This document shows, piece by piece, positions 8,487 through 26,260 of a DNA stretch of 64,000 nucleotides. Under the pieces are notes generated by a model. That model was given only the letters and a program-made list of their open reading frames with translations. It did not search any database and had not been told where the DNA came from. Each line of letters begins with the position of its first letter. Position 1 is the stretch's first letter. The translations under genes and the position numbers were made by a program. Source of the stretch: Colwellia sp. (GTDB taxonomy: Bacteria; Pseudomonadota; Gammaproteobacteria; Enterobacterales; Alteromonadaceae); NCBI RefSeq assembly GCF_013215345.1, contig NZ_JABSOV010000011.1, forward strand, positions 19,021 through 83,020, read 5' to 3'.

Positions 8487-8670
8487 AAATGGAGCAGGAA
8501 AGTCGAATTAAATGCTCGCATTTTAACTAGTATTGAAACCACTTGATAACCTTACTAGAAAAACTATTAACGTGCTCAGCAACCAGGAAAAGCTGCTTAG
8601 CATGTTTGCTCGTGTAAATTAATTACGCTTGTTACCTAGACAGTTTGCCGTGTAATGCCACCGAAATGTT

Positions 8671-8701
8671 ACACTTTTCTATCACATGTTGATACTTTTC
8701 T
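8671..8701 (+). promoter_or_regulatory. Composite AraC-type operator candidate, site 1
   Basis: ACACTTTTC-TATCACATGTT-GATACTTTTCT; same sequence and spacing as at 16953-16983 and 20926-20956. Confidence 0.7.
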
Positions 8702-8872
8702 GTTTGTTTTTACACGGCGACTTTTTCCGGTAAATTAGTGTTTAATCCAAGCTAATTACTTTGGTTTTATCGGTATTAATATCATCAGTTACAGTTGTTT
8801 TTTAAAGGCTTTATAGTAGAGTGTAGGTTAGTTTATTTCTTTATTCCGTCGTGGTTGGGTGTTAAAAACATT

Positions 8873-10384
8873 ATGTCTGGTGCAATTGAAAAAGTTGTTA
8901 TTGTTGGTGGTGGAACTACCGGTTGGATGGCTGCGGCAAGCTTATTAAAATATGCGACAGATAAAAATATTACCGTCACTTTAGTTGAGTCGCCAACCAT
9001 TAGTACCGTGGGTGTTGGTGAAGCGACTATTCCTAATATTGTCGATTTCAATCGTAACTTAGGCATTGATGAAGTTGAGCTGATCAAAGCAACTCAAGCG
9101 ACCTTTAAGTTAGGTATTGAGTTTGAAGATTGGTATAAAAAGGGAGAGCGATTTTTTCATCCTTTTGCCGATTACGGCTTGAAAGTCGATAATGTTGAGT
9201 TTCATCATTACCTTAACAAGCTCAATCAGCAAGGTACCAAAGTTGATTTAGAAGATTACAGCTTTGCTTGTGCGCTAGCCAAACAGGGAAAATTCGCCCA
9301 ACCTAACCCAAACCCGAGCAATCCACTTGCTGAATACTCATACGCTTATCATTTAGATGCAGTATTGTACGCTAAATTTCTCTGTGATTTTTCAGTGAAA
9401 AAAGGCGTTGAACATATTTTAGCCAACGTAACTGAAGTGAACTTAAATAACGACTCAGGTTTTATTGAATCACTGACTTTAGATGATGGTCGTCAGATCA
9501 ACGGAGATTTATTTATCGATTGCTCTGGTTTTAAAGGGCTGTTAATTGAAGGTGCTATGGGCATTGAACTGGACGATTTAAGCCAGTGGTTACCGTGTGA
9601 TAGTGCCGTAGCAGTGCAAACTACACTTGTGGGAAATCCTAACCCGTATACCCGAGCCATCGCAAAAGATTCAGGCTGGCAATGGCAAATACCATTACAA
9701 CATCGTATGGGCAATGGTTACATTTATAGCAGTAAATTTACCGATGATAATGCCGCGCAAGAGAGTTTACTTGCCAGTATTGACGGTAAAACCATCAATG
9801 AGGTACGCAAGTTTTCTTTGCCGGTAGGGCGACGTAAAGTTACTTGGCATAAAAACTGTTTTGCGTTGGGCTTGGCGGCTGGGTTTCTTGAGCCATTAGA
9901 GTCATTGGGAATTTCATTAATTCAAACGGGCATTGCTAAGTTATTAACCTTCTTTCCTGATAAATCGTTTAATAGTGCCGATATTGCCGAAGTAAACCGT
10001 TTACAAAATTGCGAGTTAGACCGCATTGTTGATTTTCTAGTGCTGCATTACAAACTCAGCGCCCGTGATGATACTGAGTTTTGGCGTTATTGCCAGAACA
10101 TGGCAATTCCCGATAGTTTAGCGCATAAAGTTGAGGTGTTTAAAAGCCAAGGACATGTGGTGATGCATGATCATGAATCTTTTGAACGCGCCAGTTGGTT
10201 GTCGATGTACCACGGCTTTAATGTGGTGCCACAGCGCTACGATGTGCGTATTCAAAATGTTGATGTGAGTGTTATTGAAGCTAAGTTGGCGCAAATGCGA
10301 AACTCAATGGCGGGCGCTGCTCAGCAGGCGATGTCGCATCAAGACTTTATCAGTAAACATTGCCGATCGCGGTGTGAACTATAG
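8873..10384 (+). CDS. Tryptophan 7-halogenase-like flavin-dependent halogenase (paralogue 1)
   Basis: GGGTTGWMAAA FAD motif, VGVGEATIP, ATFKLGIEF (Lys of the halogenase active site), WQWQIP and FLEPLESLG motifs. ATG at 8873 preferred to the track start 8795. Confidence 0.88.
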   Translation: MSGAIEKVVIVGGGTTGWMAAASLLKYATDKNITVTLVESPTISTVGVGEATIPNIVDFNRNLGIDEVELIKATQATFKLGIEFEDWYKKGERFFHPFADYGLKVDNVEFHHYLNKLNQQGTKVDLEDYSFACALAKQGKFAQPNPNPSNPLAEYSYAYHLDAVLYAKFLCDFSVKKGVEHILANVTEVNLNNDSGFIESLTLDDGRQINGDLFIDCSGFKGLLIEGAMGIELDDLSQWLPCDSAVAVQTTLVGNPNPYTRAIAKDSGWQWQIPLQHRMGNGYIYSSKFTDDNAAQESLLASIDGKTINEVRKFSLPVGRRKVTWHKNCFALGLAAGFLEPLESLGISLIQTGIAKLLTFFPDKSFNSADIAEVNRLQNCELDRIVDFLVLHYKLSARDDTEFWRYCQNMAIPDSLAHKVEVFKSQGHVVMHDHESFERASWLSMYHGFNVVPQRYDVRIQNVDVSVIEAKLAQMRNSMAGAAQQAMSHQDFISKHCRSRCEL

Positions 10385-10417
10385 TTTTTTAGTGTACTTA
10401 TGCTATGGAATATAAAA

Positions 10418-10455
10418 GAAAACGCGCTGCTTAGTTGATAATTAGCGCGTTTTTA
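10418..10455. terminator. Bidirectional terminator between convergent halogenases
   Basis: AAAAGAAAACGCGCTGCTTAGTTGATAATTAGCGCGTTTTTA. Confidence 0.7.
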
Positions 10456-10464
10456 GTGTTAACT

Positions 10465-11982
10465 TTATTCAGGTGTGGGTGCTGGGCAGTATTTCTGTAA
10501 AAACTCATCATGGCTGGGCTGTTTTTTCACCACCTCAACAATGGCATTTTTACCAGCCGTTAAGCTCATCTTTAATTTTTTATAATCTAAAGCATCCACT
10601 GTTGGGTTATACCCAGCTGGCATTATACCCATGCCGTCAAATACCGCATACCAACTGGTGGGCTGAAATAACTCTTCAGCACCCGGTTTTAAGCCGCCAG
10701 CAACCTTGAAAAAATCAATGCGTTGTTGCAAACTTGTTGGAATAGCCATGTTTTGACAATAAAGCCAAAATTCGGTGTCATCGCGCTCAGTAGTGCAGTA
10801 ATGTAAAATCAAAAAGTCACGGATCTCTTCATAGTCAGCGCGCACGCGGCGATTTAATTCATTAACCAATGTTTGATTGCAGTTTTTGTCAGGAAACATA
10901 CGCACAAAAAAGGCCAGTGTTTTTGATACTAAATGAATCGCGGTCGACTCTAGGGGCTCAACAAAACCTTGCGCTAAACCTAACGCCAAACAGTTTTTAT
11001 TCCATGCTTGTTTGCGCATGCCCGTTACAAAAGGGATCACTTTTGGTTTGGTAAGCGGCTCACCTTCAATGTTGGCTAATAATGTCGCAATGGCTTCTTC
11101 GTCACTGCAATATTTATCACAAAAAACATAACCGTTGCCCGTTCTATGCTGGAGTGGTATGCGCCATGTCCAGCCAGCATCTTGCGCGCGTGACGTTGTA
11201 TAAGGAGTGATTTCGCCAGTATTTTTAGTTTGCACTGTTACCGCTCGGTTGCAGGGTAAATATTCAGACCAATCGTCATAACCTGTGTTCAAAATCCCCT
11301 CTATTAATAGCCCTTTAAAACCCGTGCAATCAATAAAGAAGTCGCCAGTTATTTGCTGACCATCTTTTAAGGTAATGTTATCAATAAAGCCGCTATCATT
11401 TTTGGCAACTGACTCTACATGACCTTCAATACGCTGTACGCCAATACTTTCTGAGAATTTACGCAGATATTGCCCCACTAATATCGCATCTAAATGCAAA
11501 GCATAATGGGCGCTTGCTAGTGGTGTACCCATCGCATTAAACGGTAAGAAAAAGCGGTTGTGATCAGACAGGACTGACTCAGGTGAGTGCGCCATTAACG
11601 GGGTTTTATCACCTTCTGCTTTTGACTTTAACCAACACTGATAAAAATCATGTCCATCAATTTCCTGCCCTAATACGCCGAAAGGATGAAAATAGGCATG
11701 ATCTTTTTTACGCCAATTTTCAAAGCGAATACCCCATTTAAAACTCGCTTGAGTGGCTTTAATAAATTCAGCTTCATCTATGCCTAAGCTACGAATGGTA
11801 TCAAGAAGCGGCGGTATAGTGGCTTCACCGACACCAATAATGCCGACTTCTTTAGACTCAACTAGCGTAATGTTAACATCGCTATCTTTAAATATATTAC
11901 CCAGTGTGGCGGCAGCTACCCAGCCAGCGGTTCCACCACCAACAATAACAAAATTTTTAATGGCATCTTGTGTGACTTGCAT
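10465..11982 (-). CDS. Tryptophan 7-halogenase-like flavin-dependent halogenase (paralogue 2)
   Basis: GGGTAGWVAAA, VGEATIP, ASFKWGIRF, WTWRIP, FVEPLESTA. Confidence 0.88.
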   Translation of the reverse strand: MQVTQDAIKNFVIVGGGTAGWVAAATLGNIFKDSDVNITLVESKEVGIIGVGEATIPPLLDTIRSLGIDEAEFIKATQASFKWGIRFENWRKKDHAYFHPFGVLGQEIDGHDFYQCWLKSKAEGDKTPLMAHSPESVLSDHNRFFLPFNAMGTPLASAHYALHLDAILVGQYLRKFSESIGVQRIEGHVESVAKNDSGFIDNITLKDGQQITGDFFIDCTGFKGLLIEGILNTGYDDWSEYLPCNRAVTVQTKNTGEITPYTTSRAQDAGWTWRIPLQHRTGNGYVFCDKYCSDEEAIATLLANIEGEPLTKPKVIPFVTGMRKQAWNKNCLALGLAQGFVEPLESTAIHLVSKTLAFFVRMFPDKNCNQTLVNELNRRVRADYEEIRDFLILHYCTTERDDTEFWLYCQNMAIPTSLQQRIDFFKVAGGLKPGAEELFQPTSWYAVFDGMGIMPAGYNPTVDALDYKKLKMSLTAGKNAIVEVVKKQPSHDEFLQKYCPAPTPE

Positions 11983-12015
11983 ACGTTTTTCCAGTGATAG
12001 TAGGTTGGGTTTAAA

Positions 12016-13551
12016 TTAAAAATTGCTTTTATATTGGCAATGTAGCGTTAAAAACTCATGGTGACTTGGCGATTTATCGACTTGCGATTGCACCATCGTA
12101 CGCATTTTTTCTAGGTGTTCAGTTAAGTAATCAGCGTCCATCTTGTCTGCACGTTGATCATAACGGTCAGGCATAAAGTTAAAACCATTAAATATAGCTA
12201 ACCAACTATCACTACCAAATATTTCCCATGGGTAGCGCACGATAGTACCGTCTTGTTTGAATTTGTGCATTTTATCTTGCAAGGTTTTCGGGATATCCAT
12301 ATCACGATAATACTGCCACATAGGACTATCAGTGCGCTGGTTTATTTTATAATGCAAAATAATAAAGTCGCGTACTCGTTCATATTCTTGCGCATTAACC
12401 TCGTTAAAGCGTTCGACATCTTGCACATTATATTCAGGCAAGCTTTTATTAAAGGTTAATAATATTTTATCAATCGCGGTTTCAACTAAGGCAATGCTGG
12501 TGCTTTCTAATGGCTCTAAAAACCCTGAGGCTAAACCAACAGCAATACAGTTTTTATTCCATGCCTTTTTACGTCGACCTGGGGTAAAAGAAAAACTGCG
12601 TGGTTCATGCAGTAATTCACCATCAATATTGCTTAATAAGCTTGCTTTGGCGTCTTCATCGCTACTGTATTTACTGCTGTAAACATAACCATTGCCCATG
12701 CGATATTGTAATGGTATTTGCCATTGCCAACCGGCTTTTTGCGCTTGCGCTATGGTACAAGCTATTGGCGCTTGTGTGCTTCTACTTTGCACGGCAATGG
12801 CTCTGTCGCATAATAACCAGTGGCTCCAGTCGTCGTAACCTGTCTTTAATGCGCCTTCAATTAACAGCGCTTTAAAGCCCGAACAATCAATAAATAAATC
12901 CGCTGTTATATTGCGACCATCTTGAAAGGTTATGCTGTCGATGTCGCCCGTACCTTTGTTGATTTGAGCTTGCTCGATAAAGTTATCAACTATTTCTACC
13001 CCTTGTTTAACCGAGTAGTCTCGCATTAAATTGGCAAATAGTACGGCATCAAAATGTAAGGCCCAATCGAATACATCCAATTGACTTGTAGGCGTTTCTG
13101 CGGGAAAGAAGAATTTATTCTGCTGCGCTAAATTTACACCCAGCGAGTAATCACTTAAATCACTGGGGTGTTTTTTTTGTGCTTTAAGCCAGTAATGATG
13201 AAAAGGCACTTCTTTAGTTCCTTGACCAAATAAACCAAAGGGGTGAACAAAACTATTACCGTCACCTTGCCAGTCTTTAAATTCAATACCTAATTTACAA
13301 GTGGCATTGGTGGCTTTAATCACCTCTATATCGCTGAAACCGAGTTTTTTATAAAAACGGCGCAAGGTCGGAATAGTCGCTTCGCCGACTCCAATGGTAC
13401 CGAGTTGAGAGGATTCAACGACCGTGATTTTTGGCGTATGCTGGGGGAACTGTGTTTTAAAGTGATGACTCAGTGCTGCGGCTGTCATCCAGCCTGAAGT
13501 ACCGCCGCCAACAATGACCACAGATTTAACTAATTTAGAGCCAATATTCAT
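12016..13551 (-). CDS. Tryptophan 7-halogenase-like flavin-dependent halogenase (paralogue 3)
   Basis: GGGTSGWMTAA, VGEATIP, ATCKLGIEF, WQWQIP, FLEPLESTS. MNIGSKLVKSVVIVGGG start preferred (track extends to 13572). Confidence 0.88.
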   Translation of the reverse strand: MNIGSKLVKSVVIVGGGTSGWMTAAALSHHFKTQFPQHTPKITVVESSQLGTIGVGEATIPTLRRFYKKLGFSDIEVIKATNATCKLGIEFKDWQGDGNSFVHPFGLFGQGTKEVPFHHYWLKAQKKHPSDLSDYSLGVNLAQQNKFFFPAETPTSQLDVFDWALHFDAVLFANLMRDYSVKQGVEIVDNFIEQAQINKGTGDIDSITFQDGRNITADLFIDCSGFKALLIEGALKTGYDDWSHWLLCDRAIAVQSRSTQAPIACTIAQAQKAGWQWQIPLQYRMGNGYVYSSKYSSDEDAKASLLSNIDGELLHEPRSFSFTPGRRKKAWNKNCIAVGLASGFLEPLESTSIALVETAIDKILLTFNKSLPEYNVQDVERFNEVNAQEYERVRDFIILHYKINQRTDSPMWQYYRDMDIPKTLQDKMHKFKQDGTIVRYPWEIFGSDSWLAIFNGFNFMPDRYDQRADKMDADYLTEHLEKMRTMVQSQVDKSPSHHEFLTLHCQYKSNF

Positions 13552-13681
13552 CAGATAACCTTGCTTTTTCACACCGATATCATGGTGTGTTTTGGGTGTT
13601 AAATTAAGTAATAAATCTATCAGGTAAGGTATGTAATTCTTGATTTAAAACAATATTAATTATTTAATAGTGATTAAAAAC

Positions 13682-13713
13682 AAAAAACGTCATAATTTCT
13701 TGTGACGTTTTTT
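13682..13713. terminator. Rho-independent terminator-like hairpin between the receptor gene and halogenase 3
   Basis: AAAAAACGTCATAATTTCTTGTGACGTTTTTT. Confidence 0.7.
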
Positions 13714-13781
13714 AATCAGTTTATATAAGCTAAGTAGCCTTAATAAAAGAACTACTTAGTAGAGCTTGTTTAACTTTTCAA

Positions 13782-16700
13782 TTAGAAAGTTACACGAGCA
13801 CCAACAGTCCAGCGCGCTTCATATTCGTTGCGGTACGCTTTTTGGTCTGAGAATTCAAGATAAGTCTGTTGAACTTCTTCCAAAATATTTGAACCAAATA
13901 CATAAATATCAGCATAGTCAGTTACTGAGTAAGTAGCACTGAAATCAAGTTGTGAATAAGTATCTTGATAAAGTGATTGACCGCCAACAGCACCTTGTGA
14001 GCCTTGCGTGATTAAACGCGGGCTACGAGAGTTCCATGCGAAACGTGTTGAGAACGACTCTTGCTCATACCATAAAACAAAGTTGTAAGTATCTTTTGAC
14101 ATGCCAACAAATGGTAAGTCACCGCCATTAACATCTTTGTTTTCTTGAGAACTATCAGTAAAAGTATAGTTAGCATCAATACCCATATTGTTAAGGAATG
14201 CAACATCCATAAAGTCACTAAAGGCAGCTTTAGCGCCTAATTCAAGACCGTTTACACTACCACCAGCGCCTTGTACTTGAGTAGTGAAAGGCCAAGGACC
14301 ACGTTTGATGCCATCTTCATCAGGCTCATCTACTAATATTTCACCGCCTTCGGTAAAGCTTTCGATATCAATGTTGAACGCTGAAACGAACATCATAGAA
14401 GCGTCGCCGTTATACCACTCAGCAGTTAGTGATAAGTTTTCTGAGCGCCATGGGTTCAAGCTTGGGTTACCCGTTAAGTTACCGTTAACTACGCGTAAAC
14501 AGTTACAGTCAGCATTAATTACTTTACCCACTGTTTTACCACCACCCCAACTTGCAAGATCTAACGACTGCATGTTTTTAGAGTAAGCACCACGGAAGAT
14601 AATATCATCAGTTGCAGCAACCGCTACGTTTAATGAAGGTAGGTAATCAGTGTAACTGCGATCAGTTACCGCATCACCAATATCAGGACCTAAACCAGAA
14701 TGTGGTAAGTTAGTACCTGTAAGGTTTTGCTTAACATAAAGGTCGGTTTCGATAACTTTTAAACCAAAGTTACCACTAACAATGCCTTGTTCGAAGTTAG
14801 CTTGTAAGAAATAAGTAAATTCGTTTAAACCTACATCGTAAGTTGCGCCACCATTTTCAGTACGTTGCACGTTACCAAAAGTATCTAGGTGGAATTGACG
14901 AGGATCACTAAAGTTACTTGGATCAATTGCCCACATGGTAGGAATACCTTGCACGCTACCAAAGTTAGAAATTTCGCTAACCGTAGTATGTTTATCTAAT
15001 GCCGTTGGCGCTAATAAAGTATAAGGAACCCAAGTACCTGCAGCAATCGTTTCGCCATCGTGTTCAGCATCTACTTCTAAGTATTCACCTGCAGCAGGGT
15101 TACCTTCACACGTTGATGTTGTATGGTATTGATCGACCGCTTTCCATTGCGCGATATCACAGCCATCACCAAAGGTAGAGGTATAAGTAAATTGGTCGTG
15201 ATCTACTTCACGTTCCATGTAACGAACACCAAAATCTACGCTAGTAATAAATGGCATATCATCAAATTCATAATTCCACTTAGTACTAAAAGTATTGATT
15301 TCAGCTCTATCGTCAGTATTACCTTCAGATGAGAATGCACCAACATGGTATGAATCTAAGTTACCCATGTAAGCGGCAACACTTTGCATACCTTGACCGC
15401 CGCCAACCATTTGATCGAAACCACTAAATACAGGGCTTTCACCTTGAGCATTGTAGCGAATTAAGAAATCAGCGTCAGCGATACCGCCGGGTGCGAATGT
15501 TCCGTAACAACCACCACTTTCACCAACAATTGTATCATCAGCACCACAGTTTTCTGTTTGGGTAAATTGACCAGGGCCTGTTACTAAACTTGTGTGATCG
15601 ATATTAAGCATATCGCCTTCACCGTAACCATGACGCATGCTTGACTCAGCACTTGCTCGTGTCATACGTACTTGACCTGTTAAGTTGCCGCCATTGTTGT
15701 AGTTTAATTCTAAGTTAAAGTTTTTCGAGGTTTCTTCGTTGTTGTTGACCTGAGTAAAGGTCTGCATACGCCAAGGTTTTAAGTTAAAGTCATTAACTGC
15801 GCCCCAAGCATTGCCTTCTTCATCGGTGAAAGTATCACCCGTCCAGCTATCGGCATTTGCTGGTAACGCATAGTCGTTAAATGAATGCCAACGGTTGTTT
15901 TGTGAGAAACCTTGACGGTTATTGAATCTGTCTTGGTTAGTGTAAAACGCATCAAATGTTAATTCGAAACCTTCACCTAATTCGGCTTGGAAAGAGAACT
16001 GGTAACCTTGACGTTCACGAGTTTCTTCTTTATTAAATGCAGCAAAACCTTGTGGTACTACGTGACGAACAGGGCCACTTTCTGGACCAGCTCCCCAAGT
16101 ATGACTGTTGTTTGCTGCGCCAATACCGCCATTTTCAGAGGTATCGAAGTAACCGTTATAATCGGTTGCTAACGTTACTTCTTGGGTAACGGCAGAAAAC
16201 AACACACCAAAACGGTCGCTGTTATAGCTTACTAAACCGTTTAAGTTTGGATCTACTTCTTGGCTAATAGAACCTTGAGTTACATCAGCACCAACGTTGA
16301 ATACCCAACCGCTGTCCATATCAAATGGGCGACGAGTATGTAAGTCAATTGAACCTGAAATGCCACCGGCAGTGCGGCTAGCTTCAGATGATTTATAAAC
16401 ATCAGCACCTGAAAATAATTGTGATGGTAAATCACCAAAGTTAGCACCTGATGAATCAATAGTGGTAGCACTTAAAAAGACTTCACCATTTAAAGTTGAG
16501 CCAACTTGAGGTAAACCACGTATAGCAATAGTACCACCTTCACCAGCGGTACGCTCTACTTGCACACCCGTAATACGTTGTAATGAATCAGCAATAGTAA
16601 CATCTGGTAACTTACCAATGTCTTCTGCAGCGATACCATCAACCTGTGAAGTTGCGAAACGTTTGCCGTTGATGCTGGCTTTAGTACTGCCACGGATACC

Positions 16701-16841
16701 AGATACTTGAATTACTTCAATATCGTCTTTATTTACTTCAGCAGCTTCTTCAGCGGCCATAGCATATGAGCTAACACCCGTTGAAAAAACTAGCGCAATA
16801 CTTGTTGATAACAAGCTCTTTTTAAAATTTTTATTTGGCAC
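13782..16841 (-). CDS. TonB-dependent receptor (carbohydrate-uptake type)
   Basis: 1019 aa; TonB-box-like DDIEVIQVSGIRGS, plug ADSLQRITGVQVERTAGEGGTIAIRGLPQV, beta-barrel ending ...RWTVGARVTF. Confidence 0.93.
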   Translation of the reverse strand: MPNKNFKKSLLSTSIALVFSTGVSSYAMAAEEAAEVNKDDIEVIQVSGIRGSTKASINGKRFATSQVDGIAAEDIGKLPDVTIADSLQRITGVQVERTAGEGGTIAIRGLPQVGSTLNGEVFLSATTIDSSGANFGDLPSQLFSGADVYKSSEASRTAGGISGSIDLHTRRPFDMDSGWVFNVGADVTQGSISQEVDPNLNGLVSYNSDRFGVLFSAVTQEVTLATDYNGYFDTSENGGIGAANNSHTWGAGPESGPVRHVVPQGFAAFNKEETRERQGYQFSFQAELGEGFELTFDAFYTNQDRFNNRQGFSQNNRWHSFNDYALPANADSWTGDTFTDEEGNAWGAVNDFNLKPWRMQTFTQVNNNEETSKNFNLELNYNNGGNLTGQVRMTRASAESSMRHGYGEGDMLNIDHTSLVTGPGQFTQTENCGADDTIVGESGGCYGTFAPGGIADADFLIRYNAQGESPVFSGFDQMVGGGQGMQSVAAYMGNLDSYHVGAFSSEGNTDDRAEINTFSTKWNYEFDDMPFITSVDFGVRYMEREVDHDQFTYTSTFGDGCDIAQWKAVDQYHTTSTCEGNPAAGEYLEVDAEHDGETIAAGTWVPYTLLAPTALDKHTTVSEISNFGSVQGIPTMWAIDPSNFSDPRQFHLDTFGNVQRTENGGATYDVGLNEFTYFLQANFEQGIVSGNFGLKVIETDLYVKQNLTGTNLPHSGLGPDIGDAVTDRSYTDYLPSLNVAVAATDDIIFRGAYSKNMQSLDLASWGGGKTVGKVINADCNCLRVVNGNLTGNPSLNPWRSENLSLTAEWYNGDASMMFVSAFNIDIESFTEGGEILVDEPDEDGIKRGPWPFTTQVQGAGGSVNGLELGAKAAFSDFMDVAFLNNMGIDANYTFTDSSQENKDVNGGDLPFVGMSKDTYNFVLWYEQESFSTRFAWNSRSPRLITQGSQGAVGGQSLYQDTYSQLDFSATYSVTDYADIYVFGSNILEEVQQTYLEFSDQKAYRNEYEARWTVGARVTF

Positions 16842-16952
16842 GATAGACCCTTAACATGTTGTTTTTATTTATATATTTTAGTTATAGATTATTAGTTATA
16901 CTGCATATTATTTAAGCACTACCATTTTGACCTTTCCTTTAGTGCAATAGTG

Positions 16953-16983
16953 ACACTTTTCTATTATATCTAGATACTTTCCT
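16953..16983 (+). promoter_or_regulatory. Composite AraC-type operator candidate, site 2 (upstream of the TonB receptor)
   Basis: ACACTTTTC-TATTATATCTA-GATACTTTCCT; reverse complement faces the receptor gene. Confidence 0.7.
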
Positions 16984-16999
16984 ATCGTTTATCGAGTGC

Positions 17000-17020
17000 A
17001 AATGTCGAACGCTGTCATTT
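17000..17020. promoter_or_regulatory. Imperfect palindrome, candidate NagR/LacI-like site
   Basis: AAATGTCGAACGCTGTCATTT; its complement AAATGACAGCGTTCGACATTT shares GACAGCG with the perfect palindrome at 3455-3480. Confidence 0.4.
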
Positions 17021-17300
17021 TTGTTAGACGAAAAAATAATAGCGGAATCCAGTTGTTACTTGTATATACAGATATAAATAGAGGGTGGTGATTAAGCGCC
17101 TAAGTGGAATAAAAAATAACGACTAACAAGAGGGCAACATGTGTAAGGTAAAACTTGTGGTCAATATTCAGTTTACTCGTAAAAAGGTTAAAAAATAACT
17201 CAACGGGATCAAAATATATGCCCATTATTTTTGTAATACGCTTACGAAAATTTCCCTCATGAGCTAAGAGTTTGCTTATTCTGTTGATAATAATAAGCGA

Positions 17301-17492
17301 GTGAAAATTATTGTTGCTGTAAGCATTGGGTGGTTAGGCGCGTATATTATTGGTGGTTATACTGCTGTGTTATGGAGCGATTCAATTCAAGGCATTATCT
17401 TGTTTGTTAGTTTTATTACACTCTTATTGATTTTATTGTCGGGCAGCGGCCTTTATTTATGGTTGAAATATACAATGAACACCCATAAATAG
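17301..17492 (+). CDS. Small membrane protein / possible SSS-family symporter remnant
   Basis: 63 aa; IIGGYTAVLWSDSIQGIILFVSFIT resembles the GGxxAVxWTDxIQ segment of sodium:solute symporters. Confidence 0.4.
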   Translation: MKIIVAVSIGWLGAYIIGGYTAVLWSDSIQGIILFVSFITLLLILLSGSGLYLWLKYTMNTHK

Positions 17493-17509
17493 TACCTAAA
17501 CAGAGCTGT

Positions 17510-18379
17510 TTATAAAGGCGATGGATTTTTAATGCTTTCTCTAAACTCGGTCGGGGTAATGCCTTTCACCATCAAAAAATGTCGATTAAAATTAGATGCA
17601 TTATTAAAACCGCACTGGTCGCATATTGCTGAAATTAAAGTATTAGTATTAATCAATAGTTTACAGGCTTTTCCTATGCGTAATTGGGTAATAAACTGAT
17701 TTAAGGTTTTTTCGGTACGTTGTTTGAAAAATCGATGAAAGTGATTGGTGCTCATATGAGCAATTAAAGCCAAATCATCAGCTCTAATCACATCAGTATA
17801 ATGTTGGTAGATATAAGTAATGACGTTATCGAGTTTATCGACTGAAATGTCTGTTTTATTACTAAAGGTAAAAAAACTGCTTGATAAAACTTGGTAATTT
17901 CTATCATTAGCCATCAACGTTAATAGTTGAAGTAAAAGGATATACCTTTCAATAGGCTCGGCACTTACCATCGCTTTGAATAATATTAAGGATTGTTTGG
18001 TTGTAGTAGGGCTATATTCAATTCCCCGTAACGACAGCGTTAACATTTTAGCTAATACGGCCAATTCAGGGTTTAACCTAACTAAGTTATCTAACCAGAT
18101 TGCAGGGATTTGTGCGACATAGATGATTAAATTCTTTTCATTATTTATTGGCTTCGCTTGCCAACTGTGCGGCAAGTTTGGACCAAGTAAGACAAGATCT
18201 GCTTGATTATAATAACTAACGTGATCGCCTATATGTTTTGAACCTTCGCTATTTAACGTTAAGCAAATCTCATATTCAGTATGGTAATGCCAATTAAACT
18301 CCTTTAACGGCAGCTCAAAAACATCAAAGCGCCAAGAGCAATTATCTGAAGGGATCATTTTGCCACATTTAGGCTTCAT
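17510..18379 (-). CDS. AraC family transcriptional regulator
   Basis: Cupin-like N-terminus (FNWHYHTEYEICLTL...GPNLPHSW) and C-terminal HTH_18 (LALIAHMSTNHFHRFFKQRTEKTLNQFITQLRIGKACKLL...CGFNNASNFNRHF). Confidence 0.93.
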   Translation of the reverse strand: MKPKCGKMIPSDNCSWRFDVFELPLKEFNWHYHTEYEICLTLNSEGSKHIGDHVSYYNQADLVLLGPNLPHSWQAKPINNEKNLIIYVAQIPAIWLDNLVRLNPELAVLAKMLTLSLRGIEYSPTTTKQSLILFKAMVSAEPIERYILLLQLLTLMANDRNYQVLSSSFFTFSNKTDISVDKLDNVITYIYQHYTDVIRADDLALIAHMSTNHFHRFFKQRTEKTLNQFITQLRIGKACKLLINTNTLISAICDQCGFNNASNFNRHFLMVKGITPTEFRESIKNPSPL

Positions 18380-18696
18380 ATCGTTTCATCCTTTAAACAG
18401 TCTATCTTTTTATTTTGTCGAAAGAGTACCAATAAAGGTAAATATTTTCAGAATTAAATAGTTATAAGTTAAGAGTTAATCGTATTGAATAAAGTTATGT
18501 ATTTAGTCTTATGGATTGTTGCTAAATACAGATTTTGTATTTTCATAGGTAAGACAATTTTTTTGTGATAGAAAAACATTCACATTTGATTGATTTGTAT
18601 AACTTGTCGATATATTCCGTTCTAAGATAGTTGCGTTCTCTAATGTTGATTTTAGAACACTATGATTACCAATGTTTTTTAACGTAATTTTGAGGA

Positions 18697-19977
18697 ATGG
18701 AAATGAAAATTAAATCCCTAACTTGTGCTATCAGTTTTGCTTTATTAGCCAGTACTTTTGCTGAAGCTAATGATAGAACTATCTATCTTACTTTTGATGA
18801 TGGTCCTATGAATGCGACACCAGCATTAATCGATACATTGAATAACGCTAATATTAAGGCAACATTTTATGTTAATGCATGGCACTTAGACGGTATTGCG
18901 GATGAAAATGAAGATCAAGCGCTTACTGCGCTTACTTATGCTTTGAACTCAGGCCATGTTATCGGTAATCATAGTTATGATCATATGGTGCATAACTGTG
19001 TTGAGGATTTTGGTCCAACGAGTGGCGCTGATTGTAATGCGACAGGAAACCACCAAATTAATTCGTATCAAGATCCCGTGTACGATGCCTCCATGTTTGC
19101 AAAAAACTTAACCGTACTTGCTTCATATATCCCTTCTATTACAAGTTATCCAAATTATAAAGGCAGTGTTTTAGCTCGCTTGCCCTACACCAACGGTTGG
19201 CGCTCAAGTACAGAACTAAAAGGTGACGGTTTATGTGCAACCTCGGATGATTTCAAGCCATGGGAGCCAGGTTATGTTTGTGACCCTGAAAATCCATCAA
19301 ATAGCTCTGCTGCTGGTATTGCGGTATCTAACCTTTTAGCGAACAGTAATTATTTGATTCATGGTTGGGATGTTGATTGGGCTCCTGAAAACTGGGGAAT
19401 TCCGTTTCCTGCCAATAGCTTAACAGAAGCCGATGTGTTTTTAAGTTATGTGGATTCTGCGATTAACGCTTGCACACCAGTTAGCATTAATCCGGTAAAC
19501 TCTAAAACACAAAACTTCCCATGTGGAAATTCTTTGCATGCAGATAAAGTGATTATTCTTACCCATGATTTCTTATTTGAAGACGGTAAACGAGGTCAAG
19601 GTGCGACATTAAATCTCCCTAAACTCGCTGAATTTATAACGTTAGCCAAAAATGCAGGTTATACCTTTGATACTATGGATAATTATGCACCAGAATGGCT
19701 AGAAGGGAAAAGTTATGAATCAGGTGATTATGTAACCTATTTGAATCGTGTCTATAAAGCAGAAATTAGCCATACAGCACAGTCAGATTGGGCGCCTAAT
19801 GCAAGTTCTAATTTATGGCTGCAAAGCACGCCAAGTCAAGTTTGGACTAATAATATGCGTTACAATCATGGTGATATTGTTACTTATATGGGCAAAGATT
19901 ATTTAGTTATCTCTGAACATGTCTCCCAAACAGTTTGGGTGCCAGATGCTACACCAACGCTTTTTAGTGAATTATAA
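18697..19977 (+). CDS. Polysaccharide (chitin/chitooligosaccharide) deacetylase with tandem CBM5/12-like C-terminus
   Basis: NodB-type motif TFDDGPMNATPALIDTL and HSYDH; two C-terminal repeats (WLEGKSYESGDYVTYLNRVYKAE..., WTNNMRYNHGDIVTYMGKDYLV...). Confidence 0.88.
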   Translation: MEMKIKSLTCAISFALLASTFAEANDRTIYLTFDDGPMNATPALIDTLNNANIKATFYVNAWHLDGIADENEDQALTALTYALNSGHVIGNHSYDHMVHNCVEDFGPTSGADCNATGNHQINSYQDPVYDASMFAKNLTVLASYIPSITSYPNYKGSVLARLPYTNGWRSSTELKGDGLCATSDDFKPWEPGYVCDPENPSNSSAAGIAVSNLLANSNYLIHGWDVDWAPENWGIPFPANSLTEADVFLSYVDSAINACTPVSINPVNSKTQNFPCGNSLHADKVIILTHDFLFEDGKRGQGATLNLPKLAEFITLAKNAGYTFDTMDNYAPEWLEGKSYESGDYVTYLNRVYKAEISHTAQSDWAPNASSNLWLQSTPSQVWTNNMRYNHGDIVTYMGKDYLVISEHVSQTVWVPDATPTLFSEL

Positions 19978-20038
19978 ATAATATGATAACTTATCTACTG
20001 TTAATTCTTCATTAATGGTGGATAAATTTATCTGTCTG

Positions 20039-20896
20039 CTAACGATTAATATATAACTTACGAAACTGACTTGGTGTTAGTTCTTTAAACTGTAAGAAAC
20101 GCCGGTTGAAGTTAGAAATATTATTAAAACCACAGGTATCACTTATCGTAGTAACAGGCATTGTTGTATTAATGAGTAAAGAGCAAGCTTTACTAATGCG
20201 CAGTTGATTCACCAGTTCGGTGAAGGTTTGCTCAGTACGTTGTTTAATGAAGCGATGAAAGTGATTAGTGCTCATGTGTACTAATTGGGCAAGCACTTCT
20301 GCTTTTAGATTACTGGTGTAATGCTGATGTAAATGACGAATGATCTTATCGAGTTTATCAGTACTGGGATCTGAAGTAATGGCCACATTGTAACCTGAAC
20401 TCGATAATATTTGCGTATTGGTGTCAGTTGCCATCAGCTGTAAGATTTCTATTAAGCTAATAAAGCGTTGTGTCGGTGATGCTTTTGCCATCTTTTTAAA
20501 AATAGCAGTGACTTTTTTAGCGACGGTGGTGCTAAATTTTATCCCCCGTTGTGATAACTCTAATAAATGTTTTAGCGAGACTAAATCTGGCATGGCGGTA
20601 AGTTGTTCAAGCCAAAGCACTGGGATTTGTGCCACATAAACTTGTTGTGCTTTACCATCAAGTGCTTGGCTACTACACCAAGTATGCGGTAAATGAGGAC
20701 CGAAAAGGGTTAAATCAAAATCAGCATAGTTCTCAATATGGTCACCAACATACCTTTGACCATGGCTATTAAGTGTTAAAGCAATTTCATATTCAGGATG
20801 GTAGTGCCAGTTAAAGGGAATCTGCTCTAATTCATAAAGCCAATACCGCCAAGAAGAGTTTTCTGTTGGTAACACTTTTTCATACATTAATTTCAT
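20039..20896 (-). CDS. AraC family transcriptional regulator (paralogue of 17510-18379)
   Basis: FNWHYHPEYEIALTLNSHGQRYVGDH...GPHLPHTW plus AraC HTH; strongly similar to the other AraC protein. Confidence 0.93.
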   Translation of the reverse strand: MKLMYEKVLPTENSSWRYWLYELEQIPFNWHYHPEYEIALTLNSHGQRYVGDHIENYADFDLTLFGPHLPHTWCSSQALDGKAQQVYVAQIPVLWLEQLTAMPDLVSLKHLLELSQRGIKFSTTVAKKVTAIFKKMAKASPTQRFISLIEILQLMATDTNTQILSSSGYNVAITSDPSTDKLDKIIRHLHQHYTSNLKAEVLAQLVHMSTNHFHRFIKQRTEQTFTELVNQLRISKACSLLINTTMPVTTISDTCGFNNISNFNRRFLQFKELTPSQFRKLYINR

Positions 20897-20925
20897 ATTA
20901 TGTAGTTCTGCTTACCATGTTGAAT

Positions 20926-20956
20926 AGAAAAGTATCATAGGATGGTTGAAAAGTGT
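20926..20956 (-). promoter_or_regulatory. Composite AraC-type operator candidate, site 3 (araC / sugar transporter intergenic region)
   Basis: Top strand AGAAAAGTATC-ATAGGATGGTT-GAAAAGTGT; reverse complement ACACTTTTC-N11-GATACTTTTCT. Confidence 0.7.
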
Positions 20957-21018
20957 AGCAATGGTTTTTTATTCACGGCAAAATAATTAAGTAATATTAT
21001 CTCTATGCTTAGGGGTAA

Positions 21019-22332
21019 TTGATAATGAACATTAAGAGGTTAAACATGAAGAGTAATATAATCGCAGTGATTTTGGTTTTGGTGACCTTTTTTGCTATCT
21101 CATTTATCACTAATATTATTGGACCCTTATTTCCTTCTTTAGTAAAAGATTTTGACATCAGCTTAGCGGTTGCTGGCTTTTTACCGTTCTCCTTTTTTTC
21201 CGCTTATGGTGTAATGTCAATTCCTGCGGGTTTGTTGGTTGATAAGTTTAGCGAAAAACCGGTGTTGATTGGCGCATTTGTTATGTCAGCATTTGGCTCG
21301 TTATTGTTTGCACTTGTGCCAAGTTTTTTTATGGCGATGGCCTCATTGTTTTGCATTGGCACTGGCATGGCAATGTTACAAGTGGCGATTAACCCCTTAT
21401 TAAGAGTTTCAGCAGGAAAAGAGCATTTTGCTTTTTATTCTGTCTTAGCGCAGTTACTTTTTGGTGCGGCAGCGACCTTAAGTCCGCTGGTTTATAGTTA
21501 TTTAGTACAAGGTATGGCGGCAGGCGAAACATCAGGGCTTATTGGTTTGATGAACCATTTGGTGCCAAGCAATATGCCGTGGTTGTCTATGTATTGGGTT
21601 TTTGCTGCGGTGTCTGTGGTTATGTTAGTTTTTATTCTATTAATTAAACTGCCGAAAGTAACATTGACTGATGAAGAGTCAGTAGGGGGCTTAGCGATTT
21701 ATGCGCAGTTATTTAAAAACAAAACCGTTATTTTATTCTTCATCGGTATCGCTGCTTATGTTGGCACCGAACAAGGGGTTGCCAATGCAATTTCTCTTTT
21801 CTTAGAGCGTTATCATGGTTTGGATCCGTTAACCGTAGGCGCCAACACGGTCAGTGATTTCTGGTTGATGTTAACCTTAGGCTGCTTTTTAGGTTTGGCT
21901 TTATTGAAGGTTTTTGATAGCCGTTTAGTATTGAAAACATTCTCTCTAGGCGCATTTATTTCATTAACGTCTGCCTTATTTGGTAGCGCTGAGGTAGCAT
22001 TAATCGCTTTTCCGTTAGTGGGTTTTTTCTTGTCTATTATGTGGTCGGTTATCTTTTCGTTAGCACTCAATTCATTAGCTGATCATCATGGCTCATTTGC
22101 TGGGATTTTGTGTACGGGTATTGTTGGTGGCGGTTTAGCGACACCGTTAGTAGGGTTGTTGGCTGATTTAACCGGTGACTTACGTATGGGCATGATAGTG
22201 GTTTACATAACGTTAGCTTATATTTTTGCCATAGGTTTTTGGGCTAAGCCGTTAGTCAATAATAAAACTATTAACGTCTTTAAACGTGGCCAAAAAGCGG
22301 CCGATAATGCTAAGACGGCTGCTTCAAGCTAA
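21019..22332 (+). CDS. nagP: MFS sugar transporter, N-acetylglucosamine (NagP)-like
   Basis: 437 aa, 12-TM-like MFS; FITNIIGPLFPSLVKDFDISLAVAGFLPFSFFSAYGVMSIPAGLLVDKF; next to hexosaminidase and ROK genes. Confidence 0.82.
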   Translation: MIMNIKRLNMKSNIIAVILVLVTFFAISFITNIIGPLFPSLVKDFDISLAVAGFLPFSFFSAYGVMSIPAGLLVDKFSEKPVLIGAFVMSAFGSLLFALVPSFFMAMASLFCIGTGMAMLQVAINPLLRVSAGKEHFAFYSVLAQLLFGAAATLSPLVYSYLVQGMAAGETSGLIGLMNHLVPSNMPWLSMYWVFAAVSVVMLVFILLIKLPKVTLTDEESVGGLAIYAQLFKNKTVILFFIGIAAYVGTEQGVANAISLFLERYHGLDPLTVGANTVSDFWLMLTLGCFLGLALLKVFDSRLVLKTFSLGAFISLTSALFGSAEVALIAFPLVGFFLSIMWSVIFSLALNSLADHHGSFAGILCTGIVGGGLATPLVGLLADLTGDLRMGMIVVYITLAYIFAIGFWAKPLVNNKTINVFKRGQKAADNAKTAASS

Positions 22333-22353
22333 TCAAAAAAGAGTATTAATTTA

Positions 22354-25068
22354 ATGAAAAATATCATCCCAGCCTCGGCGCTGAGTGCCATTGCTTTGCT
22401 ATTAACGGCCTGTAATGGGGAAATGGAACCGGCTAAAACCGAGCAGTTAAAAGTAGAAGCAATAGCTACAGAGTCACCATTAACGGCTCAGCAACAATTG
22501 ACTGCTTTAGCTGAAAATTTGCAGGTTAAGTATCATTTTTTAAGTAATATTGAAACTGATTGCCCAGATCGTCATGGTGAAGTGGTTAAATATTGTTACA
22601 GTGCAGAAATACACTTAAGTTTGTCAGAAAATAGCCCAAATTATTTTACTGAAAATGAAGATTGGCAAATAAATTTTTCACAAGTGTATCCAAGTTATGC
22701 CAGTGAAAGCAGTGATTTCAATTTACAGCATTTAAACGGTGATATTCACCAAATCACTGCTAAAGCTGGCTTTAGTGGTTTTACTGCTGGTGAAATCAAA
22801 AAAGTAAAACTTTGGGTGAAAAGCACGTTAATAACAGAGTCTGAATTGATGCCCAACTATTGGTTATCAGCGACTGACTTATCACCAGCAGTAATTGTTA
22901 GTACCAAAACTAGCATAGATGCTGATACGGGTTTGGAACTGCAGCCGTGGGTAGCTCCTTTTACTGATATAGTGAAACAAATAAAGTCATCGCCTGATGA
23001 TATTAACCAGTATGCTTCAACGTCGTGGTTATATGACAATGAACCTAATCACCTTGAGTTAGGTGCACAAGCGATTGATTTAGCGATTATTCCTACGCCT
23101 AACTCTTTGAAAGTCACCGATGCTAAGTTTCGTTTAGATCTATCTTCAGGTATTAATGTTTCATTAATAGGGCTCGAGACAAAAGATATTGCTGCCGCCA
23201 CTGAGCGTTTAAGTTTTCTAGGCATAAAAGAGAGTGAAACCGGTATAGCGATAAATATTGTACTAAACGATGATAAAAAGCCGGATTGGCGTGCTGGCCA
23301 TTATCAGTTGGAAGTTAATGGCCAAGGCATTGATATTAATGCCCAAGACAGTAGCGGCGCTTTTTATGCATTGCAAAGTATCGCCAGTTTACTTACTTTA
23401 GGTTCTACTACACTACCGTTAGTGAAAATAGATGACCAACCGCATTATGACTATCGTGGTCAACATGTTGATGTGGCGCGTAACTTTCATTCGAAAGCGT
23501 TTATGTTTGCGCTTATCAAACAAATGTCAGCTTATAAACTCAATAAATTACATCTACATTTAGCAGAAGATGAAGGCTGGCGCTTAGCCTTGCCAAGTTT
23601 GCCTGAATTAACCCAAGTGGGTAGTAAACGTTGTTTAGATTTGAGTGATAAAACCTGTTTACAACCACAGTTGGGCGGCGCAGGTGTAACAGATAGTGAC
23701 GGTTTTTATAGTGTCGAAGATTACCAAGAAATATTGCGCTTGGCGACCAAGCACTATATTCAAGTGATCCCATCGCTTGATATGCCAGGGCATTCTCGTG
23801 CGGCTATTAAAGCCATGGAAGCGCGGTATCACTATTATATGAAACAAGAAAATGAGTTAGAAGCTAAACGTTATTTATTATCCGATTTTGATGATAAAAC
23901 GCAATATAGTTCTATTCAAAATTATAATGATAATACCTTAAATATTTGCATGGAATCGACCTATGCTTTTGTTGATCGTGTGCTTGATGATTTAAAACTA
24001 ATGCATGAGCAAGCAGGACACCCACTCGCACTTTACCATATTGGCGCGGATGAAACCGCAGGTGCATGGCTTGAATCGCCGGTATGCCAAGCACTTATTG
24101 CCGATAAAACCAATGAATTTGGTGATGCCAAACACCTTGGCGCGCATTTTATTGAACGCGTATCTCATATAGTGACTGATAAGGGTATTGCTGTTGGCGG
24201 TTGGAATGATGGTTTGAAAGAAACTGCAGCGACTAAAATGCCAGAGGAGGTGTATTCGTATATTTGGGATACATTACCTGGGGGGGCTCATAGGCAAGTA
24301 AGTGAGCAAGCACATCGAAATTGGAATATTATTTTATCAACACCAGATGTTTTGTATTTTGATTTTCCTTATCAAATCGATCCAAAAGAGCGTGGTTATA
24401 ATTGGGCATCAAGACGGGTAACAACACGATCATTGTTTAATTTTATGCCTGATAACTTACCTATTCATGCAGAGTTTCGCCTTGATACTTTAGGTAAAGG
24501 CTTTACCAGTAATGATGAAGTACAACATGACCAAACGGGCAAAGTTATCCATCAGCCGTTACCTAAAGGTTTTACCGTTAAAGGTATTCAAGGGCAGTTA
24601 TGGAGTGAAACTGTGCGTAGTGATAATCAGGCTGAGTATATGATTTATCCAAGGCTACTGTCATTGGCGGAACGAGCTTGGCATCAAGCGGACTGGCAAG
24701 TGCCATATAATTATTCAGGGCAGGTTTTTACTAAAGAGACAGGCGTTTTTACTGAACAAGCAAAACAACAGCGCGATCAGCAGTGGTTAAATTTTTCACG
24801 AACGTTAGCGGAAAAAGAATTACCCAAGCTTGACCTTGCTGGTGTTTTTTATCGTCTGCCAACGGTTGGTGCTAAAGTTATTTCGGGTAAGCTTAATGCC
24901 AATGTTGCCCTTAAAGGCTTGCCAATAGAATATCGCCAGCTGGGAGAAAATCAAGCAGCTTGGTTGCCATATAAAATACCAGTTACCGTGACTTTACCCA
25001 TTGAAATACGTACTCGCACTACCGACAAAAAACGTGCTGGCCGCACCATGACATTGACGAAAAAGTAA
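22354..25068 (+). CDS. Beta-N-acetylhexosaminidase (GH20, chitobiase-like lipoprotein)
   Basis: Lipobox ALLLTACNG; GH20 motifs DVARNFHSKAF, LHLHLAEDEGWRL, PSLDMPGHSRAA, HIGADE, W(N)DG, QGQLWSET. Confidence 0.93.
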   Translation: MKNIIPASALSAIALLLTACNGEMEPAKTEQLKVEAIATESPLTAQQQLTALAENLQVKYHFLSNIETDCPDRHGEVVKYCYSAEIHLSLSENSPNYFTENEDWQINFSQVYPSYASESSDFNLQHLNGDIHQITAKAGFSGFTAGEIKKVKLWVKSTLITESELMPNYWLSATDLSPAVIVSTKTSIDADTGLELQPWVAPFTDIVKQIKSSPDDINQYASTSWLYDNEPNHLELGAQAIDLAIIPTPNSLKVTDAKFRLDLSSGINVSLIGLETKDIAAATERLSFLGIKESETGIAINIVLNDDKKPDWRAGHYQLEVNGQGIDINAQDSSGAFYALQSIASLLTLGSTTLPLVKIDDQPHYDYRGQHVDVARNFHSKAFMFALIKQMSAYKLNKLHLHLAEDEGWRLALPSLPELTQVGSKRCLDLSDKTCLQPQLGGAGVTDSDGFYSVEDYQEILRLATKHYIQVIPSLDMPGHSRAAIKAMEARYHYYMKQENELEAKRYLLSDFDDKTQYSSIQNYNDNTLNICMESTYAFVDRVLDDLKLMHEQAGHPLALYHIGADETAGAWLESPVCQALIADKTNEFGDAKHLGAHFIERVSHIVTDKGIAVGGWNDGLKETAATKMPEEVYSYIWDTLPGGAHRQVSEQAHRNWNIILSTPDVLYFDFPYQIDPKERGYNWASRRVTTRSLFNFMPDNLPIHAEFRLDTLGKGFTSNDEVQHDQTGKVIHQPLPKGFTVKGIQGQLWSETVRSDNQAEYMIYPRLLSLAERAWHQADWQVPYNYSGQVFTKETGVFTEQAKQQRDQQWLNFSRTLAEKELPKLDLAGVFYRLPTVGAKVISGKLNANVALKGLPIEYRQLGENQAAWLPYKIPVTVTLPIEIRTRTTDKKRAGRTMTLTKK

Positions 25069-25094
25069 AGCTTAGAATAAGCTCTTTAACGAAA

Positions 25095-25133
25095 AATAAG
25101 CCGTAATAAATCTCTTACTTATTACGGCTTTAT
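25095..25133 (+). terminator. Rho-independent terminator after hexosaminidase
   Basis: AAATAAGCCGTAATAAATCTCTTACTTATTACGGCTTTATT. Confidence 0.7.
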
Positions 25134-25194
25134 TGATCATGTTATTTATATTATCAATAATTTAGTTTGTATTCTAACGGACAAGAACTGTCAG

Positions 25195-25226
25195 TGAATA
25201 GTATTGATATTTGATAGGAAAGTATC
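25195..25226 (+). promoter_or_regulatory. Weaker AraC-type operator candidate, site 4 (upstream of ROK kinase)
   Basis: GAATAGTATT and AGGAAAGTATC with AGT cores 21 bp apart; AAAGT is followed after 22 nt by GGCAAAATA exactly as at the nagP-like promoter. Confidence 0.45.
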
Positions 25227-25333
25227 TCAGTGTTTGTTTGTTTAAGGCAAAATAGTGTTATCAAATATTCCTAATAACAAGTAAAAAAGCTGATTTTTTC
25301 GACTTGTTATATTTTATAACGATACGGTTTTTT

Positions 25334-26260
25334 ATGAAACAGTCTTCCATTGTGGTCATCGATTTAGGTGGCACAAAAATTAATTATGGCCTTTATCGAG
25401 CGGGTCATATCGATATTAATATTGTTAAACCTTTTGATGCGACTTTAAGTGTTAAAGATTCAATACTTTTTATTAAATCCTGTATTGATGAAATAAAAGA
25501 CAGTGATAGTTGCGCTGTTGCTATTGGCGTGCCTAGCATTGTGGATGTAGAGCAAGGTATTGTTTTTAATGCAGTTAACATAAAGTCATGGCAAAAAGTA
25601 TATTTAAAAGATGAGCTTGAATCTTTGTTAGCGCTGCCTGTTTATGTTAATAACGATGTTAACTGTTTTGTGCAAGGTGAATACTCATTAACACACTCTC
25701 AGGGCTATCAAGATATCATTGGCCTATGCTTAGGTACGGGGGTGGGGGCTGGTATTATTTTACAAAATAAAGTTTATGCCGGTACTAATGGCTGTGCTGG
25801 TGAAGTTGGTGATTTTAGTTATTTGAATGGTAGTTTAGATGATTATTGTTCAGGTAAGTTTTTTAAAAATCACTACCTTGAGTGTGGTGCCGAATTAGCA
25901 AAGAAAGCTCGCGCAGGAGACAAACAAGCGTTAATTGCTTTTGAACAATTTGGTCAACATTTAGCCGTTGCTGTCAGCCACCTTTTGTTGATGTTAGATC
26001 CACAGCTCATTGTTATTGGTGGTTCTGTCGCTAAGTCCTTCGATCTCTTTATTGACTCGTTGTGGCAAAATCTTGCTGCTTTTCCTTATCAAAGTGTTAT
26101 TAAAAATTTAGTGATTGAACAAAGTCATCAAAAAAATAGTGCTTTGTTAGGAGCGGCTCAGCTTTATTTAGCAATGTTAAATTCAGCAAAGTTAACTATG
26201 TCTTCATCGTATGTTATAAACAATAACTCTGAAAAATTGGTGCTATCTGATTTATATTAA
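25334..26260 (+). CDS. ROK family sugar kinase (N-acetylglucosamine kinase-like)
   Basis: VVIDLGGTKINYGLYRAG, GLCLGTGVGAGIILQNKVYAGTNGCAGEVGDF; internal ATG 25334 preferred to the track start 25304. Confidence 0.88.
   Translation: MKQSSIVVIDLGGTKINYGLYRAGHIDINIVKPFDATLSVKDSILFIKSCIDEIKDSDSCAVAIGVPSIVDVEQGIVFNAVNIKSWQKVYLKDELESLLALPVYVNNDVNCFVQGEYSLTHSQGYQDIIGLCLGTGVGAGIILQNKVYAGTNGCAGEVGDFSYLNGSLDDYCSGKFFKNHYLECGAELAKKARAGDKQALIAFEQFGQHLAVAVSHLLLMLDPQLIVIGGSVAKSFDLFIDSLWQNLAAFPYQSVIKNLVIEQSHQKNSALLGAAQLYLAMLNSAKLTMSSSYVINNNSEKLVLSDLY

Follow-up and report, generated by a model that had tools for sequence, protein, structure and literature searches.

Introduction

The GlcNAc/chitin regulator of Shewanella, NagR, belongs to the LacI family (PMC2996990). 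Among small RNAs (sRNAs), MalH of E. coli is made from the 3' end of a sugar-uptake operon (malG) and lowers competing outer-membrane proteins in favor of the operon's own receptor (PMC8081044). In Vibrio cholerae, the chitin-linked and membrane-anchored regulator TfoS activates the gene of an sRNA, TfoR, which acts in competence (PMC11856585), and GibS of Bacteroides thetaiotaomicron is a GlcNAc-induced sRNA that acts at start regions (PMC7366714). Neither AraC-type control of nag genes nor an sRNA like the one predicted below was found in the literature we searched, which was open-access and incomplete in coverage, and the half-site GAAAAGTRT with the target set reported here was not found there either.

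Marine Alteromonadales carry many TonB-dependent receptors (TBDTs) with overlapping substrates, and the choice of the receptor that is displayed is largely an open question. Here, we describe a locus in a 64,000-nucleotide stretch of a Colwellia sp. genome (the window), for which we put at roughly 70% the probability that it is an AraC-activator regulon including an sRNA that blocks the translation of a competing canonical receptor. Related genomes are denoted by G numbers.

A direct-repeat operator at four promoters

The preliminary description of the window, made from its letters alone, had pointed out three 31-mers with two boxes around an N11 spacer, the boxes being nearly identical from site to site. 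All three are found with 0 mismatches at the positions reported for them, where dinucleotide shuffling of the window (100 shuffles) gives an expectation of 0. The motif stands above background, the whole genome (4,239,018 bases) having the exact pattern at these three places only. Matches with two or three mismatches are, across the whole genome, no more numerous than those of a reversed-pattern control. In a scan with a profile made of 24 sites, four sites of the window topped the genome (genome-wide E = 6e-9 for 8671, 1e-7 for 20926, 5e-7 for 16953, and 5e-6 for the ROK site at 25195), with the next match at E = 0.03. Neither the exact and mismatch scans nor the 24-site profile yielded any further strong operator site in this genome. 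The site before the ROK gene had been described as a weaker pair of boxes; it is weaker, but it is more than a pair, forming a complete fourth site, TGAATAGTATT-N11-GGAAAGTAT. The distance of 22 nt from AAAGT to GGCAAAATA noted earlier for the nagP-like and ROK promoters is exact.

An ungapped alignment of the 24 sites gives the consensus AGAAAAGTATC-N11-GAAAAGTRTaTCNAT, i.e., a direct repeat of GAAAAGTRT with a 21-bp period, followed by a weak -10. In 47 of 75 sites, a GCA[ACG]A[AC]T[AG] element is present whose -10 hexamer starts 24-25 nt past AAAGT, compared to 1.5 sites expected within 23-26 nt after shuffling. A proximal half-site over the -35 position, together with this spacing, is the class-II activation geometry of AraC-family proteins, and the direct-repeat half-sites, their fixed period of about 21 bp, and their overlap with the -35 are all as in AraC/XylS-type operators. 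Read in the promoter-forward sense of the operator, AGAAAAGTATC-N11-GAAAAGTGT, sites 2, 3, and 4 point at the TBDT, nagP, and ROK genes, with site 3 also lying 30 bp upstream of the AraC1 start codon (Table 1).

Table 1. Features of the AraC locus and of the predicted sRNA, in window coordinates.
Feature	Position	Strand	Remarks
Rho-independent terminator	8461..8485	-	11-bp stem, then U tract to 8454; covariation supports
Predicted sRNA, ~180 nt	8454..8635	-	TSS about 8635 inferred; 3' block conserved in G103
sRNA stem-loop 1 (GAGCA / UGCUC), 16-nt loop	8492..8517	-	Fold and covariation
Invariant loop/seed UCGACUUUCC	8497..8506	-	Antisense to GGAAAGUCGA in the ribosome-binding site of the canonical-locus TBDT, contig C82
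-10-like hexamer CAAACT (GGCAAACTG), putative sRNA promoter	8642..8647	-	25 nt past AAAGT; conserved spacing
Operator site 1	8671..8701	-	AGAAAAGTATC-N11-GAAAAGTGT on minus strand; predicted to direct transcription leftwards into the sRNA
Trp_halogenase-family gene 1	8795..10384	+	Pfam PF04820; start probably ATG near 8873
Trp_halogenase-family gene 2	10465..11982	-	Downstream of TBDT
Trp_halogenase-family gene 3	12016..13572	-	Downstream of TBDT
TBDT of AraC regulon	13782..16841	-	TIGR01782, E 2e-140
Operator site 2, predicted to drive TBDT	16953..16983	-	-10 CAAAAT at 16929-16924
AraC2 regulator (HTH_18)	17510..18379	-	50% identical to AraC1
Polysaccharide deacetylase with CBM5/12	18697..19977	+	Adjoins AraC2-type genes in Shewanella and Thalassotalea
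AraC1 regulator (HTH_18)	20039..20896	-	HTH_18 match
Operator site 3, predicted to drive nagP-like gene	20926..20956	+	-10 CAAAAT at 20979-20984
NagP-like MFS sugar transporter	21019..22332	+	Distant from NagP_SO3503
GH20 beta-hexosaminidase	22354..25068	+	Domain match
Operator site 4, weaker but complete, predicted to drive ROK kinase	25195..25225	+	-10 CAAAAT at 25248-25253
ROK-family sugar kinase	25304..26260	+	Domain match

Conservation of the operator and its putative regulators

In Colwellia, Pseudoalteromonas, and Shewanella, the motif precedes nagP, nagX, TBDT, and kinase orthologues that have AraC orthologues nearby, which bears out the conservation before orthologues that the preliminary description had called for. 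In 150 relatives searched with no more than one mismatch allowed, the best sites adjoin AraC1 orthologues (64-84% identity) or their usual targets. When both AraC proteins were used as queries, neighborhoods of AraC, TBDT, NagP, ROK, and GH20 genes were found to be kept in named genomes of Colwellia, Thalassotalea, Pseudoalteromonas, and Shewanella; AraC relatives also occur in Cellvibrio, and more distant ones in betaproteobacteria and rhizobia. Scored with a position weight matrix, the operator precedes nagX, nagP, TBDT, and ROK genes in the Colwellia group, where the strong sites reach 37-54 bits. Pseudoalteromonas and Shewanella have a weaker operator before nagP and TBDT genes, at about 10-26 bits, and since the highest score of this matrix in 2 Mb of random sequence is 13.8 bits, the weakest of these sites are individually uncertain.

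The presence of two paralogous AraC regulators in the locus, as noted previously, was confirmed by domain matches (HTH_18 E 8e-22 for AraC1 and 1.5e-21 for AraC2), with both proteins having the C-terminal double HTH (HTH_18/HTH_AraC) of AraC/XylS regulators. Their recognition helices are nearly identical. The motif is kept in genomes with AraC1 only (G111, G186, and G205) as well as in one with an AraC2-type protein only (G222), and since single-paralogue genomes of either type keep it, both paralogues probably recognize the motif. The motif being above background, its conservation before orthologues, its AraC1/AraC2-type neighbors, and the class-II promoter geometry make an AraC-type class-II activator regulon defined by this direct-repeat operator well supported, with regulator binding as a prediction.

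Several further observations concern individual genes and sites. A NagX-type (HGSNAT_cat) gene at 3514-4590 (+) of the window is without an operator; in other Colwellia relatives, its orthologue comes first after the AraC1 operator. G137 has kept operator-bearing nagP and ROK genes, yet a full AraC1/2-type protein was not found in it, and another regulator may have taken the place of AraC1/2 there. An isolated 60-codon fragment of the AraC2 C-terminus, 77% identical, lies at 1501-1680 of locus L042 in that genome (G137:C23).

Two separate nag-like systems

The regulon had been proposed as one for GlcNAc. Its assignment to an AraC-type regulator is supported; the GlcNAc label, in that form, is not, as the canonical GlcNAc genes sit in a different locus, comprising a LacI regulator, PGI, a TBDT, a halogenase-family gene, a 2OG oxygenase, GH20, NagK_SO3507, NagA, and NagP_SO3503, with TGACAGCGCTGTCA-type sites preceding the TBDT, GH20, nagK, and PGI genes. 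The LacI-PGI-TBDT part of this locus was read on contig C82 of the window's own genome (L324), and the longer gene series in G111 and G205. The AraC locus has the AraC genes and direct repeats, and the LacI regulator and palindromic sites of the NagR/LacI regulon are absent from it. Because the LacI gene and the TGACAGCGCTGTCA-type sites lie at a separate locus, the AraC locus represents a nag-like system of its own, the second in this genome and under separate regulation. With GH20 and a chitin-binding deacetylase encoded in the locus, the substrate of the AraC system may be a chitin-related sugar.

A predicted small RNA to the left of operator site 1

Overlooked in the preliminary description was the orientation of the site at 8671, which points left, away from the halogenase gene and into a region without a coding gene. 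Some 150 nt downstream of it, the minus strand enters a 69-nt block with 88% identity to the region that follows the corresponding site in G103; the block ends in a Rho-independent terminator. The fold of positions 8618-8455 beats those of shuffled sequences (z-score -3.8), no conserved ORF was found in the sRNA region, and Rfam covariance models returned no family for it at E up to 1. A promoter of its own and a Rho-independent terminator can be predicted from the sequence in the window, G103, and G222. We therefore predict that site 8671 drives an sRNA.

In some systems, AraC-family sites can work at a distance and regardless of their orientation, and the coding gene nearest to site 8671 is halogenase gene 1, which is divergent from the predicted sRNA and has no forward-oriented operator of its own. 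The locus could thus hold an ordinary AraC regulon and nothing else, with the site activating this divergent gene in reverse orientation and the hairpin being an unrelated terminator. We regard this as unlikely: the other three sites of the window face their genes at a fixed -10 distance and site 8671 has its -10 on the sRNA side, there is no minus-strand coding gene ahead of the terminator in the window that could need one, the equivalent site-hairpin pair in G103 lies behind the stop codon of the halogenase gene, and the pair in G222 stands without any halogenase gene.

Halogenase gene 1 (window 8795-10384) is inverted relative to G103 (L148, 3326-4840), where its counterpart closes the TBDT-halogenase series, with the sRNA site coming after it. 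Elsewhere in the window, at 6476-6555 (+) and directly before rpsF, there is a sub-threshold match to the RpsF_leader cis-regulatory RNA (32 bits against a gathering threshold of 37).

Copies and structure of the RNA in relatives

Copies of the sRNA follow an AraC site in the window's genome, G103, and G222; those of G111, G186, G205, and G093 are part of the 3'UTR of the receptor gene under AraC control. In each of the latter four genomes, the covariance model places the copy at the 3' end of this co-regulated TBDT, ahead of nagP or nagX, and an AraC site precedes it by about 3 kb on the same strand. The free-standing copy of G222 is located between nusG and rplK (gene names from translations) and has, in this order, the AraC site, a -10 (GCACAAT), the seed hairpin, the terminator, and an AraC2-type gene. 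A search of 299 family and 276 order genomes with a refined model gave no convincing further member; model matches in G019 and G411 (E 0.007-0.018) were rejected, as the seed is absent from them. That the RNA is limited to 7 of about 300 relatives counts against the sRNA reading.

The loop, UCGACUUUCC, is identical in seven of eight copies, the exception being CCGACUUUCC in G093. Of 21 base pairs, 12 are changed on both sides, and the covariation score is 0.58 versus 0.06-0.13 for slid controls, in an alignment fitted to the model, which somewhat favors the score. Both helices show compensatory changes, the conserved structure that a base-pairing sRNA would be expected to have.

A TCG-ACT-TTC frame with an upstream ATG is open in the window, G103, G111, G205, and G222, which could make the element a gene for a small peptide (frame MxxSTF...). 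We rejected this reading as highly improbable, since the ATG is absent from G186 (which has only GTG) and from G093, a well-spaced Shine-Dalgarno sequence is not evident, the frame crosses the terminator in the window, G111, and G222, and the third codon positions of the seed are invariant while the stems change.

Two partial relatives of these arrangements were also seen. In G103, the 3' region of the sRNA is present a second time, at about 7175-7500 of L171 (G103:C36), where it follows a TBDT gene and the remnant of a halogenase gene; the operator there has decayed and is shortened as though by loss of one repeat. In Pseudoalteromonas luteoviolacea B, a weak operator-like site (9.5 bits; L108, about 1873-1913, minus strand) lies behind a halogenase gene; it precedes a lipoprotein-like ORF, and the seed hairpin is absent from it.

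Predicted target at the start of the canonical receptor

In all six sRNA-bearing genomes examined, the complement of the 10-mer is found at the ribosome-binding site of one LacI/PGI-linked canonical-locus TBDT, which starts with MSSKTFKKG or similar and whose ribosome-binding site reads AAGGGAAAGUCG-AUG. Counted on both strands and with the sRNA included, the 10-mer itself has 3-9 occurrences in each genome, a frequency similar to that of a reversed control, and the remaining occurrences are in coding sequence or without a start region. Two other occurrences of GGAAAGTCGATG in G186 and G103 (L294 and L337) are in-frame GGKS(M) codons without a TBDT leader and were taken as coding-internal.

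The uninterrupted Watson-Crick runs are 10 nt in the window's genome, where this shortness counts against the sRNA reading, 10 in G103, 11 in G111, 12 in G222, 15 in G186, and 16 in G205, with the pairing covering the start codon in the latter two; allowing G-U pairs extends them to 11-18 nt across the genomes (11 in the window's genome). In a loop-restricted comparison, none of 329 control start regions pairs equally well. This comparison was used in place of the duplex energy of the whole hairpin region, which did not discriminate as a target test (-22.8 kcal/mol for the target in the window's genome versus a mean of -19.2 for the window's start regions). The RNA thus has a conserved seed complementary to a target start region, as base-pairing sRNAs do. 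The leaders of the AraC-controlled TBDTs are related to that of the target, are altered at exactly the target stretch (AAGGGTCTATCGTG in the window, AAGGGTAGATTATG in G103, and AAGGGTCCTATTGTG in G222), and pair poorly.

With the hairpin of four genomes sitting in a 3'UTR, it could be mainly a terminator there. Extended to all copies, this would make the element a 3'UTR or intercistronic terminator, or an mRNA stabilizer, of the receptor operon (as the TBDT 3'UTR location in G111, G186, G205, and G093 suggests) and the antisense match a product of chance, which is helped by CUUUCC being anti-Shine-Dalgarno-like and start-region matches therefore being commoner than for random 10-mers. We think this improbable, slightly more so than an ordinary regulon without an sRNA, given that free-standing copies exist behind AraC sites (in the window and G222, and behind the halogenase gene in G103), that the loop is invariant while both stems vary with compensation, and that the match falls on the same gene in six genomes, reaches 15-16 nt including the start codon in G186 and G205, and is equaled by no control.

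Throughout the genus, the target leader, GTAAGGGAAAGTCGATGTC, is conserved, including in genomes that yielded no sRNA (G277, G289, G150, and others), and this conservation exceeds the needs of a ribosome-binding site. Because the leader is conserved in relatives without a detected sRNA, conservation of the target is not evidence of selection by the sRNA. It appears that the conserved site came first and that the sRNA evolved to match it.

Proposed circuit

In the circuit that we propose, two AraC-type subunits (AraC1, and probably also AraC2) would bind the two direct half-sites, one 21-bp repeat apart, with the promoter-proximal half-site overlapping the -35 and RNA polymerase being recruited to the weak -10 located 24-25 nt further. 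Four promoters would be under this operator, namely those of the TBDT, the nagP-like/GH20 operon, the ROK kinase, and the sRNA of about 180 nt, and the halogenase-family genes behind the TBDT would perhaps be co-transcribed under site 2. The inducer of the AraC system would then switch on the sRNA along with the genes of the TBDT, nagP-like transporter, GH20, and ROK kinase, and the exposed loop of the sRNA, UCGACUUUCC, would pair with the Shine-Dalgarno/start-codon region of the canonical TBDT mRNA and block its translation. The AraC-controlled TBDT, having lost the pairing site, would escape, with an exchange of outer-membrane receptors as the result.

We infer regulator binding, activation, sRNA transcription, and repression from features that can be read directly in the genomes: the sites and their conservation, the promoter geometry, the RNA structure with its compensatory changes, the target complementarity, and the absence of the pairing site from the co-regulated receptor. 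The fuller version, in which a sugar-specific AraC regulon uses a dedicated sRNA, free-standing or in the receptor 3'UTR, to silence the paralogous receptor of the LacI system while its own receptor escapes, is one we favor by a modest degree. It offers a concrete circuit of one transcription-factor type, four promoters, one sRNA, and one predicted target at nucleotide resolution. If true, this would be an sRNA that is both 3'UTR-borne and free-standing under the same regulator, with only its loop and fold kept.

Comparison with known systems

The promoters described here share with AraC I1-I2 and the XylS class-II promoters two direct half-sites about two helical turns apart, a proximal half-site at the -35, and a weak -10, and, as in other AraC/XylS class-II systems, the HTH_18 regulator is encoded beside a predicted target. 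The target types (nagP, omp TBDT, kinase, and nagX) are those of the Shewanella NagR regulon (PMC2996990), and a LacI-type nag locus as in that regulon is also present in this genome, apart from the AraC locus. In contrast to the NagR regulon, the AraC locus is separately regulated, has ROK instead of NagK, and has a predicted sRNA aimed at the canonical receptor.

Among sRNAs, the closest functional analogue is MalH, the likeness being one of function in a different gene context: unlike MalH, the predicted sRNA can also have an AraC-type promoter of its own, and its predicted target is a paralogous TonB-dependent receptor. Compared to TfoS/TfoR, the regulator here would be a soluble AraC protein and the target a receptor, whereas GibS belongs to another phylum, has a largely unstructured 5' seed, and targets metabolic enzymes. 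The AraC-type operator and the base-pairing sRNA are thus each of a known kind; their combination and the target logic are new.
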